Position numbers and translations under genes: made by a program
Assembly (NCBI GenBank): GCA_030528605.1
Contig: JAUMYO010000008.1
Coordinates: 1 to 47,734, forward strand
Length of the DNA stretch: 47,734 bases
Direction: 5' to 3'
DNA from: Peptostreptococcaceae bacterium
GTDB lineage: Bacteria; Bacillota; Clostridia; Peptostreptococcales; Filifactoraceae
Notes under the pieces: generated by a model
Told to the model about the DNA's origin: nothing
The model's database searches: none
The model's input: only the letters and a program-made list of their open reading frames with translations
Shown here: positions 25,275-36,143 of the stretch, in pieces
Position numbering within the stretch: position 1 is the stretch's first letter
Layout of the letters: every line of letters starts with the position of its first letter

Positions 25275-25351
25275 AAACAAACATAACAAAAAACCAACCG
25301 GAAAAATATAAAATAAATCGGTTAAAAAAGCCGATGAACAAACAGCAAAAC

Positions 25352-25405
25352 CTCTTTCCCAACGATCCGTGGCAAAGCCGCAAGATCTCGGGAAAGAGGT
25401 TTTTA
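25352..25405 (+). terminator. Strong bidirectional hairpin between DUF2339 and lipoprotein genes
   Basis: AACCTCTTTCCC pairs with GGGAAAGAGGTT (12-base stem) and inner bases ACGATCC/CGAGATC extend it imperfectly. The right arm is followed by TTTTAATTTT on the plus strand; on the minus strand only a short T run follows. It lies between convergent genes and can serve both. Confidence 0.7.
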
Positions 25406-25476
25406 ATTTTGTATTATGTCGTTTTAATTATGCTGATTTTGATTTGTATATTTATTTAATTCAATTTTGTTGAGGA

Positions 25477-27147
25477 TCATTTCCCTTCTTCGCCATAAAC
25501 GAGCAATTCGCCACTTTTGATATTGTCGATCAGATATTGTTTCCAATCCGCATCGAGCTGTTCGTAGCTCTTGCCGAAGTATTCTTCAAAGGTGATCTTC
25601 TCAAAATCCTGCACTCCGAAATACAGCATCTTTTCCAATCCGTACTCTTCCATCAGATAAGCGACAAAGCTATAATTTGCATAAACATTTAAGTTATCCG
25701 GTTCTTCGATCCCATCGTATTTTTTAGCCGGATTCCCGGTAAACGCGGCGACTTTCGTATCTTTTCCAAAACCCGAAATCTCACTCATATCTCCAAATTG
25801 CAACCCTTCTCCGAATATAATATGAAGAAATGTTCTCCGATTTTCCAAATTATCGATCTGCTCCTCAACCGTAGCAAAATTTTCTTGGATCAGTGTGTCT
25901 ATAGCATCTATATACTGCTGTTCTCGCGGACTTAGCTTTATTGTCGTCTCCGATCTGCTAAAATCAATGTATTTTACCAAAAGCTCTTTATAAGGGAAAG
26001 AATCCCCGTAAAGCTTAAATAAGCACATATCTAATCCATCCAGTAACCATGTCGGTCTATTGACGAATATTCCATGTGAGCGAAAAGAATCTTGTAATAG
26101 GATATGATTGTATTCGCCAATTTGAAGTTCGATATCCCTAAGATTCACGGCATAGCTCCCATGGTATACAAAACTGAAGTCTCCTCGCTTTTCGAGCTTA
26201 TACGTGATCCTCGGCACTTCGGTCAACGGTTTTTCAAACTCTTTGTAAAAGTTCGGGGCTTGCTCTCGAATGACCTTCAGGTTGGCAGCGATATCTTCAT
26301 CAAAGGTTTTGATGATATTTTCCAGCTCTTTTGCCGTATCGTATCTTTCGTTTCGGTCGATCAAATGAATGTTGAATCCGTTGATCTCTCGTTTTGTTTT
26401 TATTTCCGGACGAAAGAACATCCATGACTCCCCTACACTGATGTTTTCAATATGGGGGTAGATGGTCTCCAGATACTCGGTGTCGATCTCATTCTCGCTT
26501 GCCCATGCTTTGATGTCATCGATCGTAATTTCTTCTTTTAATAACTGTTCTTTTTTGCCTTGCTTCAAAAGATATTTTACCAGGTCGATAGATACGAGTT
26601 TTAGATTTTCGACTTCTTCGTGGCTGGAATACTCTTCGTCAAAGCGTAGGCTGAACAGTGACAATTCATTTTGTTGAAAGTAGGATCGAAAATCTACAGT
26701 AGCATTTTCACCCGTTGGTTCGGTTTTTCCTTGTACTTCATCTGCGAACAGATTGCCGTAGATCCCTTCTACTTTCCATTGGTCATACAGATCGTAGGCT
26801 CCGACGATGATCGCTTTGCGAAGATCATCCGTTGAAACAAGCTCCGGACGGATCAAGATCTGATCTTCTTTTCTCGCTCGTGAAGGATTGCGCTCCACGC
26901 GGATCTCAAGACTTTTGATCGGCGCAAAGTCGTTGATGATGTTCAGATCTTGTTCAATCCTTTGGAATAGTTCGTCGTGATTTTCCACATTGTTTGCGAT
27001 CTGTATGTTGATATTCGGGTTTGTATATGTAGAACCAAAGTCATCCTGCTCTTTTTCAAATTTTATTCTCGAATCACAGGCGACCATGCTCATAACAGAA
27101 AAAAATATCACAATGATAAAATATAACGCTTTCTTATGTATATTCAT
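25477..27147 (-). CDS. Lipoprotein with degenerate peptidase-MA/gluzincin-like domain, paralogue A
   Basis: A 556-residue lipoprotein; the start at the second ATG is supported by AAAGGA nine bases before it. Lipobox SMVAC (acylated Cys24). The second half follows the layout of peptidase-MA-like gluzincins: an NHILLQ segment where the family has HExxH, WLLDGLD (about 361-367) where it has WxxEGxA, and near the end 'YSFVAYLMEEYGLEKMLYFG' and 'FGKSYEQLDADWKQYLIDN', which match the family's C-terminal sfv-YL--yG and g-s-eel---W--yl pattern. The zinc ligands HExxH are missing, so it is probably not an active protease of that kind. It faces outward on the membrane. First-diverged relatives B and C lie upstream; the C-terminal part is nearly identical in all three. 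Function unknown. Confidence 0.75.
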   Translation of the reverse strand: MNIHKKALYFIIVIFFSVMSMVACDSRIKFEKEQDDFGSTYTNPNINIQIANNVENHDELFQRIEQDLNIINDFAPIKSLEIRVERNPSRARKEDQILIRPELVSTDDLRKAIIVGAYDLYDQWKVEGIYGNLFADEVQGKTEPTGENATVDFRSYFQQNELSLFSLRFDEEYSSHEEVENLKLVSIDLVKYLLKQGKKEQLLKEEITIDDIKAWASENEIDTEYLETIYPHIENISVGESWMFFRPEIKTKREINGFNIHLIDRNERYDTAKELENIIKTFDEDIAANLKVIREQAPNFYKEFEKPLTEVPRITYKLEKRGDFSFVYHGSYAVNLRDIELQIGEYNHILLQDSFRSHGIFVNRPTWLLDGLDMCLFKLYGDSFPYKELLVKYIDFSRSETTIKLSPREQQYIDAIDTLIQENFATVEEQIDNLENRRTFLHIIFGEGLQFGDMSEISGFGKDTKVAAFTGNPAKKYDGIEEPDNLNVYANYSFVAYLMEEYGLEKMLYFGVQDFEKITFEEYFGKSYEQLDADWKQYLIDNIKSGELLVYGEEGK

Positions 27148-27226
27148 GTGCTTCATCCTTTATCTCAAATAACATACATCGATCCATATGTTATACTAAT
27201 ACGCTTTTATTTCGTTGCGTCAATCC

Positions 27227-27335
27227 AATCCCATGAGTGATACTGCGAAATATTTACCGGGAGAATTTATCGATCGTATCGAATCAGGAATGAAAACAGT
27301 TTCGATGCTTTCTATTGGGTTTTTAGCATTAGATC
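27227..27335 (-). repeat. Dispersed element RE3, copy 3
   Basis: On the minus strand: CCAATAGAAAGCATCGAAA, TTTTCATTCCTGATTCGATA, CGATC, and an AAATATTTCGCAGTATC block followed by CTCATGGGATTGG. It matches the order of blocks in 7226-7340 and 13333-13465. It abuts a perfect hairpin at 27334-27368. Confidence 0.6.
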
Positions 27336-27368
27336 GCATAAGGAAAATATTTTATTTTCCTTATGCGA
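27334..27368. repeat. Perfect 16-bp inverted repeat (hairpin)
   Basis: TCGCATAAGGAAAATA (27334-27349) and its exact reverse complement (27353-27368) with a 3-base loop. It lies downstream of the small peptide gene and next to RE3 copy 3. It lacks a clean U-run on the minus strand, so it may be a stabilising 3' hairpin rather than a textbook terminator. Confidence 0.75.
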
Positions 27369-27448
27369 AGTATCTCTGTCTTGATCCCTAGGATCCGAAA
27401 TATAACTAGCGAACCTGTAGCAATGGCTTGCTTTTTAATGGGATTCCA

Positions 27449-27628
27449 TTATCTTACGGGCCGTTCTCTTGGAGGTTCTGGACCTATCCCACCGACTCCG
27501 CCACAGCTGGAGAATAATTCGTAACATGCTACTCGCATAACGGATGATTCTTCCAAATTTGGGTTTTCTTCAGAAAGTATCTCTTCTACACTCTCTTTGT
27601 TCCATAAAAGCTCATTTAGATTTTTCAT
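27449..27628 (-). CDS. Orphan Cys/Gly-rich peptide, RiPP-precursor-like
   Basis: A 59-residue peptide; the ATG at 27628 has an excellent ribosome site (AAAGGAGAAAAG), better than the longer frame from 27691. The first about 30 residues are acidic and leader-like (MKNLNELLWNKESVEEILSE, then ENPNLEESS). The rest is VMRVACYELFSSCGGVGG followed by IGPEPPRERPVR: two cysteines seven residues apart, a GG-rich turn and a Pro/Arg-rich tail. This leader-plus-core layout is that of ribosomally made, modified peptides, but no maturase, protease or exporter gene is nearby and I cannot name a family. It lies between lipoproteins A and B, and a decayed copy of its 5' part lies between B and C. Confidence 0.6.
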   Translation of the reverse strand: MKNLNELLWNKESVEEILSEENPNLEESSVMRVACYELFSSCGGVGGIGPEPPRERPVR

Positions 27629-28026
27629 CTTTTCTCCTTTTCCGAGCAATTCTAATTCGTTTGCAAAAATCATTGTGTTGATGATAGACAACTGGAATTC
27701 ACTTTGAACCTGCCACTACATCTTAACACAAACCTTTGTTTGAAATAGATCCAACCTCTCGAGATCACATGTCGTCGGTTCATTTCTAAGTAGGCGACCT
27801 ATCCGGACGGATAGTTGATCCTCACAAATGTTTCGTATCGCTCTTTCACTTTAATATTTTACAAATCTATGTTAAGTAGAATTGTAATCCATTATATTTG
27901 TTATCAATATAAACTTAAAAGACAAAGTAGTTTATCGAGATAGATTTTTATTAATGTAGTCGATTTGTTGATAGCATAAAACAAAATATTTCCATTGTCA
28001 ATTCTTTTTACATAATTTTTACAAAG
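27629..28026. other. Upstream region of the peptide gene, partly duplicated
   Basis: Bases 27877-28026 are about 94% identical to 29785-29939, so the same non-coding block lies on both sides of lipoprotein gene B. It ends next to a palindrome CTATCCG-GA-CGGATAG (27799-27814), a possible operator for the peptide gene. No other gene is supported. Confidence 0.6.
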
Positions 28027-29766
28027 TTATTTATTCCGAGATCCTTCTTCACCATAAACAAGTAATTCGCCACTTTTGATATTGTCGATCAGATATTGTT
28101 TCCAATCCGCATCGAGCTGTTCGTAGCTCTTGCCGAAGTATTCTTCAAAGGTGATCTTCTCAAAATCCTGCACTCCGAAATACAGCATCTTTTCCAATCC
28201 GTACTCTTCCATCAGATAAGCGACAAAGCTATAATTTGCATAAACATTTAAGTTATCCGGTTCTTCGATCCCATCGTATTTTTTAGCCGGATTCCCGGTA
28301 AACGCGGCGACTTTCGTATCTTTTCCAAAACCCGAAATCTCACTCATATCTCCAAATTGCAACCCTTCTCCGAATATAATATGAAGAAATGTTCTCCGAT
28401 TTTCCAAATTATCGATCTGCTCCTCAACCGTAGCAAAATTTTCTTGGATCAGTGTGTCTATAGCATCTATATACTGCTGTTCTCGCGGACTTAGATTTCT
28501 TGTCGGCTCTGATTTACTTTGCTCAATATAACTTGCCATAAGCTTTTTATAAGGGAAGGAATCAGAATACAATTTCGCTAAACACACATCGAATCCATCC
28601 AATAACCACATTGGTTTATTGACGAATATTCCATGTGAGCGAAAAGATTCTTGTAATAGGATATGATTGTATTCTACCATTTGAGATTCGATACGGGTGA
28701 GATGCACGCTATAGCTCCCGAGCGGGACAAAACTAATATCTCCTCGCTTTTCGAGCCTATAAGTGATCCTCGTCGGCACTTCGGTCAACGGTTTTTCAAA
28801 CTCTTTATAAAAGTTCGGGGCTTGCTCTCGAATGACCTTCAGGTTGGCGGCTATGTCTTCATCAAAGGTTTTGATGATATTTTCCAGCTCTTTTGCCGTA
28901 TCGTATCTTTCGTTTCGGTCGATCAAATGAATGTTGAATCCGTTGATCTCTCGTTTTGTTTTTATTTCCGGACGAAAGAACATCCATGACTCCCCTACAC
29001 TGATGTTTTCAATATGGGGGTAGATGGTCTCCAGATACTCGGTGTCGATCTCATTCTCGCTTGCCCATGCTTTGATGTCATCGATCGTAATTTCTTCTTT
29101 TAATAACTGTTCTTTTTTGCCTTGCTTCAAAAGATATTTTACCAGGTCGATAGATACGAGTTTTAGATTTTCGACTTCTTCGTGGCTGGAATACTCTTCG
29201 TCAAAGCGTAGGCTGAACAGTGACAATTCATTTTGTTGAAAGTAGGATCGAAAATCTACAGCAGCATTTTCATCCGATCGTTGATCCTCGGAGATACCGT
29301 TATTTTTGCTATTGCTCTTTTTCGTATTTGGATCTTGATCGGGGTCCCCAGATCCCTCAGCCTCAAACAGATTGCCGCAGATCCCTTCAACTTTCCATTG
29401 ATCGTACAGATCGTAGGATCCGGCGATGATCGCTTTGCGAAGATCATCCGTTGAAACAAGCTCCGGACGGATCAAGATCTGATCTTCTTTTCTCGCTCGT
29501 GAAGGATTGCGCTCCACGCGGATCTCAAGACTTTTGATCGGCGCAAAGTCGTTGATGATGTTCAGATCTTGTTCAATCCTTTGGAATAGTTCGTCGTGAT
29601 TTTCCACATTGTTTGCGATCTGTATGTTGATATTCGGGTTTGTATATGTAGAACCAAAGTCATCCTGCTCTTTTTCAAATTTTATTCTCGAATCACAGGC
29701 GACCATGCTCATAACAGAAAAAAATATCACAATGATAAAATATAACGCTTTCTTATGTATATTCAT
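28027..29766 (-). CDS. Lipoprotein with degenerate peptidase-MA/gluzincin-like domain, paralogue B
   Basis: A 579-residue paralogue of gene A. Residues up to about 137 and the last about 150 are practically identical to A; between them lie a variable Ser/Asn/Asp linker (GSGDPDQDPNTKKSNSKNNG region, absent in A) and a diverged patch around the would-be active site (EYNHILLQ ... WLLDGFDVCLAKL). Lipobox SMVAC as in A. As in A, HExxH is missing and the downstream WxxEG glutamate is aspartate. The mosaic pattern suggests gene conversion. It is preceded and followed by the duplicated non-coding block. Function unknown. Confidence 0.75.
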   Translation of the reverse strand: MNIHKKALYFIIVIFFSVMSMVACDSRIKFEKEQDDFGSTYTNPNINIQIANNVENHDELFQRIEQDLNIINDFAPIKSLEIRVERNPSRARKEDQILIRPELVSTDDLRKAIIAGSYDLYDQWKVEGICGNLFEAEGSGDPDQDPNTKKSNSKNNGISEDQRSDENAAVDFRSYFQQNELSLFSLRFDEEYSSHEEVENLKLVSIDLVKYLLKQGKKEQLLKEEITIDDIKAWASENEIDTEYLETIYPHIENISVGESWMFFRPEIKTKREINGFNIHLIDRNERYDTAKELENIIKTFDEDIAANLKVIREQAPNFYKEFEKPLTEVPTRITYRLEKRGDISFVPLGSYSVHLTRIESQMVEYNHILLQESFRSHGIFVNKPMWLLDGFDVCLAKLYSDSFPYKKLMASYIEQSKSEPTRNLSPREQQYIDAIDTLIQENFATVEEQIDNLENRRTFLHIIFGEGLQFGDMSEISGFGKDTKVAAFTGNPAKKYDGIEEPDNLNVYANYSFVAYLMEEYGLEKMLYFGVQDFEKITFEEYFGKSYEQLDADWKQYLIDNIKSGELLVYGEEGSRNK

Positions 29767-29784
29767 GTGCTTCATCCTTTCTAT

Positions 29785-29942
29785 GAAGTAGAATTGTGAT
29801 CCGTTATATTGGTTATCAATATAAACTTAAAAGACAAAGTAGTTTATCGAGATAGATTTTTATTAGTGTAGCCGATTTGTTGATAGCATAAAACAAAATA
29901 TTTTCATTGTCAATTCTTTTTACATAATTTTTACAAAGTTAT
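29785..29942. repeat. Duplicated non-coding block (second copy of 27877-28030)
   Basis: About 155 bases nearly identical to 27877-28030, ending TTTTTACATAATTTTTACAAAGTTAT in both. It is upstream of gene B here and downstream of gene B in the other copy, so it marks the borders of a tandem duplication that included gene and peptide. Confidence 0.8.
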
Positions 29943-30023
29943 CAAAGTAAAGATCGTTAATGAGTTGGAAAAGGATGCAGTCTATTTCAACTTGTATTTT
30001 AGATCTCGCGATCCGCTTTGTAT

Positions 30024-30075
30024 TTTTTCTTCAGAAGTTATCTTCCGCACTCTTCTTATCCCACAAATATTGACG
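30024..30075 (-). pseudogene. Remnant of a second peptide gene
   Basis: On the minus strand the stretch encodes YLWDKKSAEDNF then a stop; the intact peptide has LLWNKESVEEIL at this point, and the DNA matches over about 40 bases (AAGAGTGCGGAAGATA against AGAGTGTAGAAGAGATA, both followed by CTTCTGAAGAAAA/CTTTCTGAAGAAAA). The start codon is missing and a one-base change breaks the frame. It lies just after lipoprotein C, as the intact peptide lies after B. Confidence 0.55.
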
Positions 30076-30081
30076 CCAAAG

Positions 30082-31926
30082 TTATTTATTCCGAGGTCCT
30101 TTTTCGCCATAAACAAGCAATTCGCCACTTTTGATATTGTCGATCAGATATCGTTTCCAATCCGCATCGAGCTGTTCGTAGCTCTTGCCGAAGTATTCTT
30201 CAAAGGTGATCTTCTCAAAATCCTGCACTCCGAAGTACAGCATCTTTTCCAATCCATATTCTTTTATCAGATAGGTCACGAAACTAATGTTTGCATGGAA
30301 ATTCTGTCGGTTCGGCTCATGGATCCCTTCAAAATACTTTTCATCCACTGAATAATGCAAAAAAACCGTATTATTCCCTTTATAAACTTCATCGAAAAAA
30401 ACATCGAAAGGAAGTGACGAAGCAAAAGTGATATGCAGGATCTTTTCCAAATTTGCTTGTTCCTCTAAAAATGTCTCTAAATTCAAGCGGTCTTTCTCCG
30501 GGATGTTTAGAAGGAATAGTTTTTGTCCCAAGTTCAAGTATTCGATCTCTCTCGGGTCGACAGTGGGATCCATATTTTGTGGTGCAAAGATCATATCTTT
30601 CAACTTTGCTCGAAATGCTTTTGCATGTATCATCCCCATATACGCATCGAAGCCTTCAATGAGCCATTGAGGTCTCCTGTTCTTGAACGAATTTTTTTGA
30701 ACAAAATTGTATTCCAGCAAGAGATGATCATACTCGACCATTTGCGCTTCCACATTTTTCAAAAATATTTTTGTGGTCTTAGGCAAATAATAGTTCCATA
30801 TCTCCCGATTATCAAAAGTGTAGATCACTTTTGGAATTTCCCTCAGTTCTTTTTCATATTCTTTGTAAAAATCGGGGGCTTGCTCGCGAATAACATCCAA
30901 ATTTTCGACGATCATTTCGTCGTAGAGCTTGATGATCTGCTCCAGTTCGCTTGCTGTGTCGTATTCTTTGTCATCGGTTATGATATTCATCGAAAAACCG
31001 TTTATATCTCGCCTCGTATCAATAAAAAGTTTCTCAAAAACTGACGGATCGCTGACTTTGACCTCGTTGATATGAGCATAAAGCTCTTCTAAATATGTAA
31101 TATCCATATTGTTTGCCTCTGCCCAAGGCTTGATGTCGCCGATCGATATTTCTTCTTTCAACAATTTTTCTTTTTGTCCGTTGTCCAACAGATATTTGAC
31201 AAGACTTGTCGATGCGTGCGTCAGATTTTGGACCTCTTCTTCGCTTGAAAAGGCAGGGAAGAAATGTGCACCGAACAAGGAGAAGTCGTGATCTTGGTAA
31301 TAAGATCGAAAATCGACTTTGTTGCTATCGGCATTTTGTCCTACTTTTCCACCGATATTTTGGTTGGAATTTGGCTCTATATTTTTTGTGTTCTCTCTTG
31401 TGGTTTGATTTTTTTCTTCACTCTTGCTTTCTTGTTCTTCTTTTGAGCTATTTGAAGCCTGATTTGTTTTTTGCTCGGTCGTTTTGTTGCTTGTATTTAC
31501 ATTCATTTCATCCGCAAATAAATTACCGTAAATTCCGACCGCTTTCCAATTATCGTATAAGTCATACGCATTGGCGATCAAGAGCTGTTTGAACTGAGGG
31601 GTTTTGACGAATTCCGCATTACATTCCACGCCACTTTTATCATTTGCTTTTAGAAGTCTGTTATCCACTCGTATGGTCATTTTTTCGATCGGTTCAAAGT
31701 CGTTGATGGTGTTTAAAGCCTGTTCTATGCTTTTGAAGATCTCTTCGTGATCTTCGACATTGTTTGCGATCCGTAGGTTGATATTCGGGTTTGTATATGT
31801 AGAGCCAAAGTCATCCTGTGCTTTGTCAAATTGCAGTTTGGAATCACAAGCGGATAATAAAACACAAAATGATAGAGGCGATAATATGATCTTGCTCACT
31901 TTGCTAATATGATGATGTATATTCAT
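30082..31926 (-). CDS. Lipoprotein with degenerate peptidase-MA/gluzincin-like domain, paralogue C
   Basis: A 614-residue paralogue; the start at 31926 follows GGGAGATCAGAA and gives lipobox LLSAC. The body is clearly older than the A/B split (about half identical to them), with a long Ser/Asn/Gln/Glu linker near 150-200. The active-site region is best kept here: EYDHLLLEYNF and then RRPQWLIEGFDAYMG, where the WxxEG glutamate of gluzincins is retained, but HExxH is still not present. The last about 60 residues and their DNA are almost identical to A and B, showing recent conversion of the 3' end. It is the first gene of the array. Probable cell-surface protein, function unknown. Confidence 0.75.
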   Translation of the reverse strand: MNIHHHISKVSKIILSPLSFCVLLSACDSKLQFDKAQDDFGSTYTNPNINLRIANNVEDHEEIFKSIEQALNTINDFEPIEKMTIRVDNRLLKANDKSGVECNAEFVKTPQFKQLLIANAYDLYDNWKAVGIYGNLFADEMNVNTSNKTTEQKTNQASNSSKEEQESKSEEKNQTTRENTKNIEPNSNQNIGGKVGQNADSNKVDFRSYYQDHDFSLFGAHFFPAFSSEEEVQNLTHASTSLVKYLLDNGQKEKLLKEEISIGDIKPWAEANNMDITYLEELYAHINEVKVSDPSVFEKLFIDTRRDINGFSMNIITDDKEYDTASELEQIIKLYDEMIVENLDVIREQAPDFYKEYEKELREIPKVIYTFDNREIWNYYLPKTTKIFLKNVEAQMVEYDHLLLEYNFVQKNSFKNRRPQWLIEGFDAYMGMIHAKAFRAKLKDMIFAPQNMDPTVDPREIEYLNLGQKLFLLNIPEKDRLNLETFLEEQANLEKILHITFASSLPFDVFFDEVYKGNNTVFLHYSVDEKYFEGIHEPNRQNFHANISFVTYLIKEYGLEKMLYFGVQDFEKITFEEYFGKSYEQLDADWKRYLIDNIKSGELLVYGEKGPRNK

Positions 31927-32234
31927 TTCTGATCTCCCTGATCCTAAAACTCTGTAGATCCGCTCCGATGGAATGTGCATAAATACATTCCCACTCCGAT
32001 GGAACAGCGAAACGGTGGCGTTACGAACCGGACCTGATTTTTATCGCTACGCTCAAAAATCAGGTCCGGTTCCATACATGGGTCAACAAGATATACAAGG
32101 ACTGCAAGGAAATCGTATATCCGTAACCTACTGCCACCGTTCCTTACAAACTTGAAACAACAAAGTAACTATTTCTGCGCTCTCTTTTTCGAGCCTGCTC
32201 AAATCGCTAAGCGAATATTTCTCCAAAACAGATC
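31927..32234. other. Intergenic region with RE1 copy 2
   Basis: Holds RE1 (32001-32143). The rest (32144-32234) follows the cardiolipin-synthase stop on the minus strand and contains GGCTCGAAAAAGAGAGCG, which is faintly like the RE4 3'-end element; this is too weak to call a copy. Confidence 0.5.
32001..32143 (-). repeat. Dispersed element RE1, copy 2, with an 18-bp perfect hairpin
   Basis: Pairs with 357-500 in inverted orientation. The centre is a perfect 18-base stem (32025-32042 and 32055-32072; GAACCGGACCTGATTTTT) with a 12-base loop ATCGCTACGCTC. The ends carry GGAAC/GTTCC and AACGGTGGC/GCCACCGTT inverted repeats. No coding capacity. Confidence 0.8.
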
Positions 32235-34463: not shown

Positions 34464-34988
34464 TTATTTAAGAATATCTGACAAGCACAATTCCCCTTTC
34501 GAAAATTTATGCTTACTTTTATAATCTTTTATTACAGCTTCCAGCTCTGCTACATCAGAAAAATATCCCTCCACAAAATCCTTCGATTTTACATTAGAGA
34601 TATTTAACTTTTGACTACAATATTCGCTTGGCTTGAGTTTACTTTTATATTTGCAATAGTCATGGTATTTCCCTTCTTTGATTATTACAAGAATTTCAAT
34701 CTCCGGAGCAGTAATGACATTGATCACATCTACTTTGTCTTGATATATTTTCCGTAACTTAAATTCTTCATTTTTAGAATCCAATATTCTGTAAACAATG
34801 ATTTCTGATTTAAAGCTTTTCCCTAAATACCTTTCCTCAAACGTTCTTGCATTCCTACTTCGCAGAAGTTCTCCGTCCAATAGCTCTTCTCTAGAAAATA
34901 TTAATCTCTTTGCATCCAACAATCTTTCTATTATTACTCTTTCTGCAGTTCCCTCCACAATACAGGCAATTATTTTAGAATTTACCAA
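34464..34988 (-). CDS. Small TOPRIM-like protein, partner of the AAA15 ATPase
   Basis: A 174-residue AT-rich gene from a TTG start, with GGAAG and AAAGGAAGGGG just before it. The start of the protein, IACIVEGTAERVIIERLLD (residues 6-24), has the hydrophobic strand plus E-G-x-x-E pattern that opens TOPRIM-like nucleases (RloB, OLD and AriB-type effectors). The middle 'APEIEILVIIKEGKYHDYCKYKSKLKPSEYC' (about 93-125) may supply the next acidic strand. It begins 6 bases after the ATPase stop. In AbiL, RloAB and PARIS defence systems an AAA15 ATPase is paired with such a TOPRIM effector. The assignment is by motif and context only. Confidence 0.6.
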   Translation of the reverse strand: MVNSKIIACIVEGTAERVIIERLLDAKRLIFSREELLDGELLRSRNARTFEERYLGKSFKSEIIVYRILDSKNEEFKLRKIYQDKVDVINVITAPEIEILVIIKEGKYHDYCKYKSKLKPSEYCSQKLNISNVKSKDFVEGYFSDVAELEAVIKDYKSKHKFSKGELCLSDILK

Positions 34989-34994
34989 AGCTTC

Positions 34995-36143
34995 CTACCC
35001 CTTCCTTTCTACCCGATCCATAATAGCTTTTTTTAAGTTTATATAGGATTCGTAAGAAGGAACGGTCCCTTCCAGGTAATCACTTTTAAATGCCTCGCTC
35101 TTCTTTATATCATTTCTCTTTAAAACTTTATACAATTTTTGAGCTGTGATCCCCCCTCTATTCCTTACAATATAAATATTATCATTTCGCTCAAATTCAT
35201 CTAACAGTTCCGAGTAATGAGTTGAAAAAATTAAAGTTGCTCCCTTTTTATTCACAGTTTCACTCATAAAGAACCTTACCAATGTCGCTACGATTTCTCG
35301 ATTAAAGTGATTCTCCAATTCGTCTACTATCAAATAGCCACCTTTTTCAAATGCCCACATCGCATTTAGAAAAATATTTATTCCTTTTATTGTCCCGGAG
35401 GATAAGTACCTTTCTATTTGAAAAGGATTACTAACGGAAATTTCTTCTCTGTCACAAAACTCCAACTTGATTTCGTTAGTATTTGGATCAACGCTGATCT
35501 TATTGATACTCGAGTCTAAAAATTGTATCAATTCTCTTGGGAAATTACCTGTTATTCGTAAAAAGTTAAGGTTAGTTAATTGAATAAGATTACGTACATT
35601 AAATCCATTCTTCTTGTTAATAGAAATAGCTATACTAACATCCTCTTTCAAAAATTCCGCTGATTCATCACGTACTATCTTATAGTCTGATTCAGCGAAA
35701 ATAAACATATCTTTTTTGGATCTTATTTGCGTAGCTTTCTTTCTATATAAGGTCTCTTCACCGATCACATAGCGTTCCTCCAAATCATTCTCTTTTGCCG
35801 GCAAGATTTGTGTATTAAGTTTGCAAATACCCTTATTATCATCGTAAAAAACAATTTCAAAATGTACATTTTCGGATTCCGTCAATATGTCTCTCGTCAC
35901 AATACTATTGATCGATTCACCATTCAACAAGTTTAGAGAAAAGGCGATCAACTTTAATAAAGATGTCTTTCCTGAAGCATTTATACCTACAATGGATATC
36001 ACGTTGTTGGTATAAATTTTGCCGAATGGATTAAAAAGCATCTCTGTATTGTCAGACATGACATTTTGTTCCGTAAAAAAATCAATCTCCACCTTCTCCT
36101 TAAAAAGCATCAGCCCTTCTACAGATAGTTTTAATAATCTCAT
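34995..36143 (-). CDS. AAA15-type ATPase, putative phage-defence sensor
   Basis: A 382-residue ATPase of the AAA_15/AAA_21 (SMC/RecF-like) group. N-terminal 'LLKLSVEGLMLFKEK' matches the usual opening; Walker A is GINASGKTS (53-61), a signature-like S-S-G-T (about 247-250), Walker B 'YLIVDELENHF' (about 275-285) and 'ATLIFSTHYSELLDEF' (H-loop, about 310-325). These proteins work as ATP-dependent sensors or scaffolds next to a nuclease effector. Coding GC is clearly lower than in neighbouring housekeeping genes, a sign of transfer. Ribosome site AGGAGGTGGATC; its own promoter is upstream. It is the first gene of the locus. Confidence 0.78.
   Translation of the reverse strand: MRLLKLSVEGLMLFKEKVEIDFFTEQNVMSDNTEMLFNPFGKIYTNNVISIVGINASGKTSLLKLIAFSLNLLNGESINSIVTRDILTESENVHFEIVFYDDNKGICKLNTQILPAKENDLEERYVIGEETLYRKKATQIRSKKDMFIFAESDYKIVRDESAEFLKEDVSIAISINKKNGFNVRNLIQLTNLNFLRITGNFPRELIQFLDSSINKISVDPNTNEIKLEFCDREEISVSNPFQIERYLSSGTIKGINIFLNAMWAFEKGGYLIVDELENHFNREIVATLVRFFMSETVNKKGATLIFSTHYSELLDEFERNDNIYIVRNRGGITAQKLYKVLKRNDIKKSEAFKSDYLEGTVPSYESYINLKKAIMDRVERKG

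Follow-up and report, generated by a model that had tools for sequence, protein, structure and literature searches.

Three adjacent lipoproteins related to HExxH metallopeptidases and a small peptide gene beside them in a Peptostreptococcaceae genome

The stretch of DNA analysed here, referred to below as the window, is a contig of 47.7 kb (47,734 nucleotides, JAUMYO010000008.1) from a Peptostreptococcaceae genome of 2.19 Mb, which is divided into 134 contigs and is 85% complete. The minus strand of the window carries an array of three adjacent paralogous lipoprotein genes, named here A, B and C, and one small peptide gene. The order of transcription is C, B, the gene of the peptide of 59 amino acids (aa), A and finally a terminator-like hairpin. 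In a first-pass annotation made from the sequence alone, the three proteins were described as surface lipoproteins resembling gluzincin pseudo-peptidases; their open reading frames on the minus strand and their lipoboxes have now been confirmed.

The remains of a zinc site and its descent

Proteins A and B are 92% identical and A and C 48%, and all three were compared within a sample of 13 homologues (A, B and C included) taken from four genomes; the related genomes include the Peptostreptococcaceae bacterium metagenome-assembled genomes (MAGs) JAUNKR and JAUNKE. The lipobox of C is the canonical LSA-C; A and B carry MVA-C with a non-standard Met at position -3, and G1a, their closest relative, has IVA-C. 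The +1 cysteine following the hydrophobic helix is invariant in all 13 proteins, which qualifies them as lipoproteins. The zinc motif HExxH had been reported as absent, and literally it is found in none of A, B and C, but the position remains recognisable as xExxH with only the first histidine lost. Aligned with intact relatives it follows the pattern [GVAS]-E-Y-[ND]-H throughout the sample (for the three array proteins see Table 1), so that Gly, Val, Ala or Ser stands in place of the first His in every case. The catalytic Glu and the second zinc His are invariant, as are the Tyr after the Glu and the residues P, W and G. The position of the third ligand (WxxEG) is occupied by Glu in nine proteins (C and eight others) and by Asp in four (A, B, G1a and G2_61a), and the earlier observation on this glutamate holds, as C reads WLIEG and both A and B read WLLDG. 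Three residues beyond the ligand position an Asp (EGxD) is invariant in the clade; neither the intact relatives nor the Peptidase_MA_2 proteins examined have it. Such a pattern is not a matter of chance, as these substitutions are fixed throughout the sample of 13 from four genomes. Judged from sequence, the A/B/C clade lacks the HExxH of an active metallopeptidase and its site is one ligand short, not erased. A further candidate feature, an acidic residue at +4 of the glutamate helix that would have disappeared along with the first His, was rejected: Leu is the usual residue at this position in bona fide Peptidase_MA_2 proteins.

Searches of Pfam, NCBIfam, PHROGs and PADLOC with A, B and C gave nothing convincing, with no Pfam or NCBIfam model reaching its cut-off, and the PDB sequence search with the array proteins was empty. 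The scores for Peptidase_MA_2 (PF13485) were 13.0-13.8 bits against a cut-off of 32.4, and sub-threshold matches of this model, located C-terminally, were obtained for 13 of the 15 family members scanned singly. Whole-genome searches revealed full-length relatives of the same order with an intact site, namely a 542-aa lipoprotein of G383 (HELGH, WQYEGLCE) and a protein of G181 (HEAVH, WTFEGIAE) whose N-terminal part lies in a frame of its own. Another family of the class has intact relatives as tandem pairs in G728 and G528 (L098 and L099), with a single copy seen in G691; the sites found in these proteins read HETVH, HEIVH and HETMH, with EGLACYL or EGLPCYL downstream.

In profile-profile alignment (hhalign) the 13 members matched G383 with G181 at 99.1% (E 4e-19), and seven intact relatives at 99.6% (E 3.9e-24) over 475 columns, with the Glu and the second His aligned. 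The alignment of the intact pair with bona fide Peptidase_MA_2 proteins (71%) covers in turn precisely the stretch from HExxH to WxxEG. The direct profile comparison of the family with Peptidase_MA_2 proteins reached the C-terminal helices only; it was by way of the intact relatives that the family could be linked to them through the active site. In the tree all 13 xExxH members are placed on one side of a branch with a support of 100/100, finer statements being unsafe because of long branches elsewhere. The full-length homology shows common descent of A, B and C with HExxH peptidases, and one zinc ligand is lost across the whole clade. Hits in G014, G025 and G053 were too short and too weak and were not used; no relatives were found in plasmids or viral contigs.

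Two remote groups have lost more of the site, and the main claims are made without them. In the relative from G714 HExxH is replaced by SATAR and most active-site residues are lost, and the motif is also lost in anti-sigma proteins of the zf-HC2 type, whose extracellular domain bears a weak resemblance. The G714 protein (L101 4277-6337) is membrane-anchored, and its active site seems to have been lost independently. The zf-HC2 anti-sigma factors (L042 1477-2664, L043 1468-2652), encoded after a sigma factor gene, are possible pseudo-peptidase sensors.

AlphaFold models of A and C, based on shallow alignments (mean pLDDT 68 and 63), place the two motifs on two consecutive helices (residues 342-360 and 369-383 in A), and the model of A contains one N-terminal hydrophobic helix. 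In Foldseek searches against the PDB, M1 gluzincin aminopeptidases rank first for both proteins and make up 48 of the top 50 matches for A, which is agreement rather than proof because the E-values are weak. It could be argued that the proteins resemble gluzincins only spuriously and that their fold is unrelated, given that no Pfam or NCBIfam model reached its cut-off, no PDB sequence was matched and the fold matches are weak; the full-length profile match to lipoproteins with HExxH and WxxEG, together with the first rank of gluzincins in both fold searches, makes this explanation the least probable of those considered. The peptidase-MA-like descent suggested at first reading is supported, and neither a fold unrelated to gluzincins nor a family profile of an unrelated enzyme with an intact site elsewhere in the protein was encountered.

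Invariant motifs in a variable module

The module around the former site, called here the cleft module, is the fastest-evolving part of the protein. Only 9 of its 128 gap-free columns are invariant in all 13 proteins, and seven of these nine lie in the 16 columns that make up the two former motifs (hypergeometric P 3.8e-6, a value to be taken as a guide only because the motif windows were picked from the alignment). Since the invariant columns concentrate in the two ex-active-site motifs, the site is to be regarded, on this evidence, as conserved and remodelled and not as decaying. The retention of residues in the A/B/C clade is also selective, because the fully dead relatives (G714 and the anti-sigma proteins) lost the motif. 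The retained site still has a role, structural, ligand-binding or perhaps chemical.

The chemical possibility deserves to be considered separately: the proteins may still be metal-dependent hydrolases in which the second His, the Glu or Asp of WxxEG and the new +3 Asp serve as ligands and the invariant Glu acts as general base. Such a proposal is favoured by E348, H351 and D376 (numbering of A), which never vary in a module that changes faster than any other, by the restriction of the +3 Asp to the clade and by the loss of most such residues from the dead relatives, but Gly, Val, Ala and Ser in place of the first His are not usual zinc ligands and the metal geometry is beyond what a predicted model can show. 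To our knowledge no gluzincin protease has such a ligand set, and this explanation is considered unlikely. With the first zinc His missing throughout the clade, the branch of which is fully supported, A, B and C would no longer act as ordinary zinc proteases; the loss of catalysis assumed at first reading is accordingly graded as likely, and as unproven because the Glu and the second His are invariant.

The modules differ in their divergence. Between paralogues, the close pair A/B excepted, identity amounts to 23-36% in the cleft module, about 50-92% in the N-terminal module and 65-92% in the C-terminal one; for G2_78a and G2_78b the values are 35%, 92% and 82%. Orthologous clefts are 79-87% identical with a nonsynonymous difference (pN) of 0.06-0.12 and evolve like the remaining protein. 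The genes A and B differ by 0-2 positions per 360-400 nt in three blocks and in 67 of 400 alignment columns over the cleft, the linker being diverged as well, and the cleft of B is nearer the G001 orthologue than the cleft of A. The last 60 codons of C are common to A and B (92% protein identity). A shared scaffold with private modules is, as far as can be read from the genes, the outcome expected of recombination or gene conversion of the scaffold.

The same pattern, with the mosaic of A and B, could be produced by a diversifying surface antigen or adhesin in which gene conversion varies an exposed cleft for host interaction or immune escape, the peptide gene being a bystander. The five family copies on three contigs of G002 and the many loci without an intact peptide gene would agree with this. 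Nevertheless, conservation of the orthologous cleft across genomes speaks for a stable specificity and not for rapid antigenic change, and both motifs never vary, which leaves the antigen explanation improbable, more so than that of a remaining hydrolase.

The small peptide gene and the surroundings of the array

The peptide gene, noticed already at first reading, lies between B and A and is preceded by a GGAG-type ribosome site. A homologue is present in G002 (contig C33, L031 2204-2389), and the 22-residue leader is 82% identical in the two (pN 0.07 against a synonymous difference, pS, of 0.67); the tails are unalignable and contain Cys in both. The gene is judged from this comparison to be real and its leader to be under constraint at the protein level. 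A conserved leader with a variable core is what is expected of precursors of ribosomally synthesised and post-translationally modified peptides (RiPPs) or of bacteriocins, and it is seen here in two sequences only. A double-glycine leader (EL-x4-GG) considered for the window peptide was dropped, as the G002 homologue is without it. No SPASM protein was found near the peptide genes, and the peptide has no match in NCBIfam or Pfam and no convincing one in PHROGs or PADLOC.

An association of the peptide gene with the lipoproteins as one system had been proposed, and it stands in part. Intact copies are found only twice among 198 relatives, once each (the next match has E 0.0067), and both lie directly upstream of a family member, A in the window and, in G002, a copy of the C type; the neighbouring genes differ between the two places. 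Most loci of the family lack an intact peptide gene. About 200 nt upstream of the peptide gene are 77% conserved in G002:C33, and in the window a copy of B's promoter block (95% identical) also precedes this gene. A weak match at the nucleotide level (78% over 45 nt, E 4e-4) points to a leader remnant between C and B, and G001 has a homologous gap. Together this suggests a repeating unit of peptide and lipoprotein genes from which peptides have been lost. Beside the second peptide gene (L031 2707-3963) a small secreted-type peptide and a divergent 304-aa HTH protein are encoded, a pair that looks like a quorum-sensing-type peptide and its regulator.

Table 1. Position and characteristics of the array features in the window
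Feature	Position	Strand	Characteristics
Lipoprotein A	25477..27156	-	559 aa; G-E-Y-N-H at residues 347-351; P-T-W-L-L-D-G-L-D at 368-376
Small peptide gene	27449..27628	-	59 aa; MKNLNELLWNKESVEEILS... leader; tail with Cys, Gly and Pro; RiPP- or bacteriocin-like precursor
Conserved region upstream of peptide gene	27629..27830	-	77% identical in G002:C33; CTATCCG-TC-CGGATAG hairpin at far end
Promoter block upstream of peptide gene	27865..28026	-	TTGACA-17-TATGCT; 95% identity over 162 nt with the block upstream of B
Lipoprotein B	28027..29775	-	582 aa; V-E-Y-N-H; P-M-W-L-L-D-G-F-D
Promoter block upstream of B	29776..29940	-	TTGACA-17-TATGCT
Degraded peptide-gene remnant between C and B	30022..30068	-	LWDKKSAED..., frameshifted; weak nucleotide match
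Lipoprotein C	30082..31926	-	614 aa; V-E-Y-D-H; P-Q-W-L-I-E-G-F-D; low-complexity linker after the N-terminal module

The start of C was taken as MNIHHH, the longest open reading frame beginning at 31980. The array is flanked on one side by what we take to be a cardiolipin-synthase-like gene and on the other by what is presumably a gene of a large membrane protein. The terminator-like hairpin downstream of A is strong (window 25345-25410, AACCTCTTTCCC...GGGAAAGAGGTTTTT), and the G001 array has a similar one at its 3' side. Between C and the cardiolipin-synthase-like gene, nested inverted repeats are located at 32011-32141 (18 nt with 100% complementarity inside a 22-nt pair with 73%); similar fragments occur near the G002 family copies, possibly as a small repeat element. 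The Rfam scan of the array gave no element over threshold (best E 0.2). Further away, at 34464-36143 on the minus strand, a 382-aa ATPase matches AbiLi (PADLOC E 3.5e-38) and is encoded directly upstream of a 174-aa protein, maybe its RloB-like partner, as a candidate abortive-infection pair.

Proposed function and comparison with known systems

It is proposed, with a probability of about 0.5, that A, B and C are surface lipoproteins derived from a gluzincin-type peptidase which bind peptides without cleaving them, have clefts specific to each copy and take the local peptide as ligand. The ancestor would have been a lipid-anchored HExxH metallopeptidase of the peptidase-MA/gluzincin line that presumably lost ordinary zinc proteolysis with its first zinc His, while the former active-site helix and the glutamate helix may have been retained as a non-hydrolytic binding site, as their selective conservation suggests. 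Recombination keeps the N- and C-terminal scaffold similar among the copies, whose modules around the site differ, so that every copy probably has its own extracellular peptide or protein to bind. At two loci the most plausible ligand would be the local precursor peptide, with the lipoprotein as its receptor or self-immunity protein, and this is the weakest step. The receptor, immunity or processing role suggested in the first-pass annotation can still only be inferred.

Several points weigh against this proposal. Some chemistry may have been preserved, given that the Glu and the His are invariant, and the best Foldseek E-values of A and C (1.1e-3 and 0.08) are, taken alone, not significant. 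Assembly may account for part of the exact identity between the A and B blocks: the relatives are MAGs, in which repeats may be collapsed, the window genome is fragmented and the G002 copies are situated at contig ends. There is no intact peptide gene at most family loci (orphans, G002:C61, G002:C78 and G005:C6), and the vicinity of either peptide, in the window and in G002:C33, contains no gene of known type for a maturase, an exporter or an immunity protein.

Pseudoenzymes of eukaryotic metallopeptidases (ADAM, M14, FtsHi) have lost zinc ligands and gained a binding or regulatory role, and the use of pseudo-active sites for binding is known among metallopeptidase homologues (PMC11266112). 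In the FtsHi sequences listed there that keep the Glu (NEAAM, REAAV, TEVGV) both His are lost (PMC11266112), whereas the array clade keeps the Glu and the second His invariantly. Regulation of active relatives is a common theme of pseudopeptidases (PMC11266112), and the array proteins might accordingly act on an active sister peptidase of their own cell, as its regulators or as decoys; however, no active family member was found in the genus or family, the window genome being only 85% complete, and no Peptidase_MA_2 match was obtained in 11 genomes of that family searched, so that this role appears very unlikely.

With Peptidase_MA_2 the array proteins share the C-terminal helical layout, the HExxH and WxxEG helices being recognisable through the intact relatives, but they lack the first zinc His, score 13.4 against 32.4 and have an N-terminal module and a lipid anchor outside the Pfam model. 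The uncharacterised HExxH lipoproteins of other Clostridia (G383, G181 and the pairs of G728 and G528) are full-length homologues of similar size (about 540 aa), with a tandem arrangement in the pairs and a lipobox where the N-terminus is present; they differ in their intact site and in the absence of the +3 Asp. Protease-like proteins beside peptide genes are also represented by the CAAX/Abi (CPBP) membrane metalloproteases of bacteriocin loci, to which immunity, processing or reception is attributed in the account of Kjos 2010 given in PMC9298176. Unlike the lipid-anchored extracellular gluzincin relatives, the CPBP proteins span the membrane several times and belong to another family; no CPBP/Abi Pfam match was found for the array proteins, and the lipoprotein has a single N-terminal hydrophobic helix.

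No named family was found that covers A, B and C, and it is the retention of Glu and the second His, together with the combination of a fixed remnant site and a variable cleft, that makes them unusual. More speculatively, and with considerable doubt, they may form a novel surface recognition system of peptide-binding, disarmed-peptidase lipoproteins in which the site was rebuilt by the loss of the first His and the gain of an Asp, the module around it diverges or is exchanged between paralogues on a common scaffold, and each copy matches its own secreted precursor peptide.

Bacterial pseudo-peptidases have been little studied compared with pseudokinases or animal pseudoproteases. The proteins discussed here offer a natural series, from intact tandem HExxH lipoproteins through a clade deprived of one ligand with a fixed remainder to fully eroded relatives elsewhere. 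With this series it can be tested whether the loss of a single zinc ligand can turn a protease cleft into a specific receptor. If the pairing with the peptide is true, anaerobic Clostridia would possess a hitherto unrecognised pair of a peptide and its receptor or self-immunity protein.

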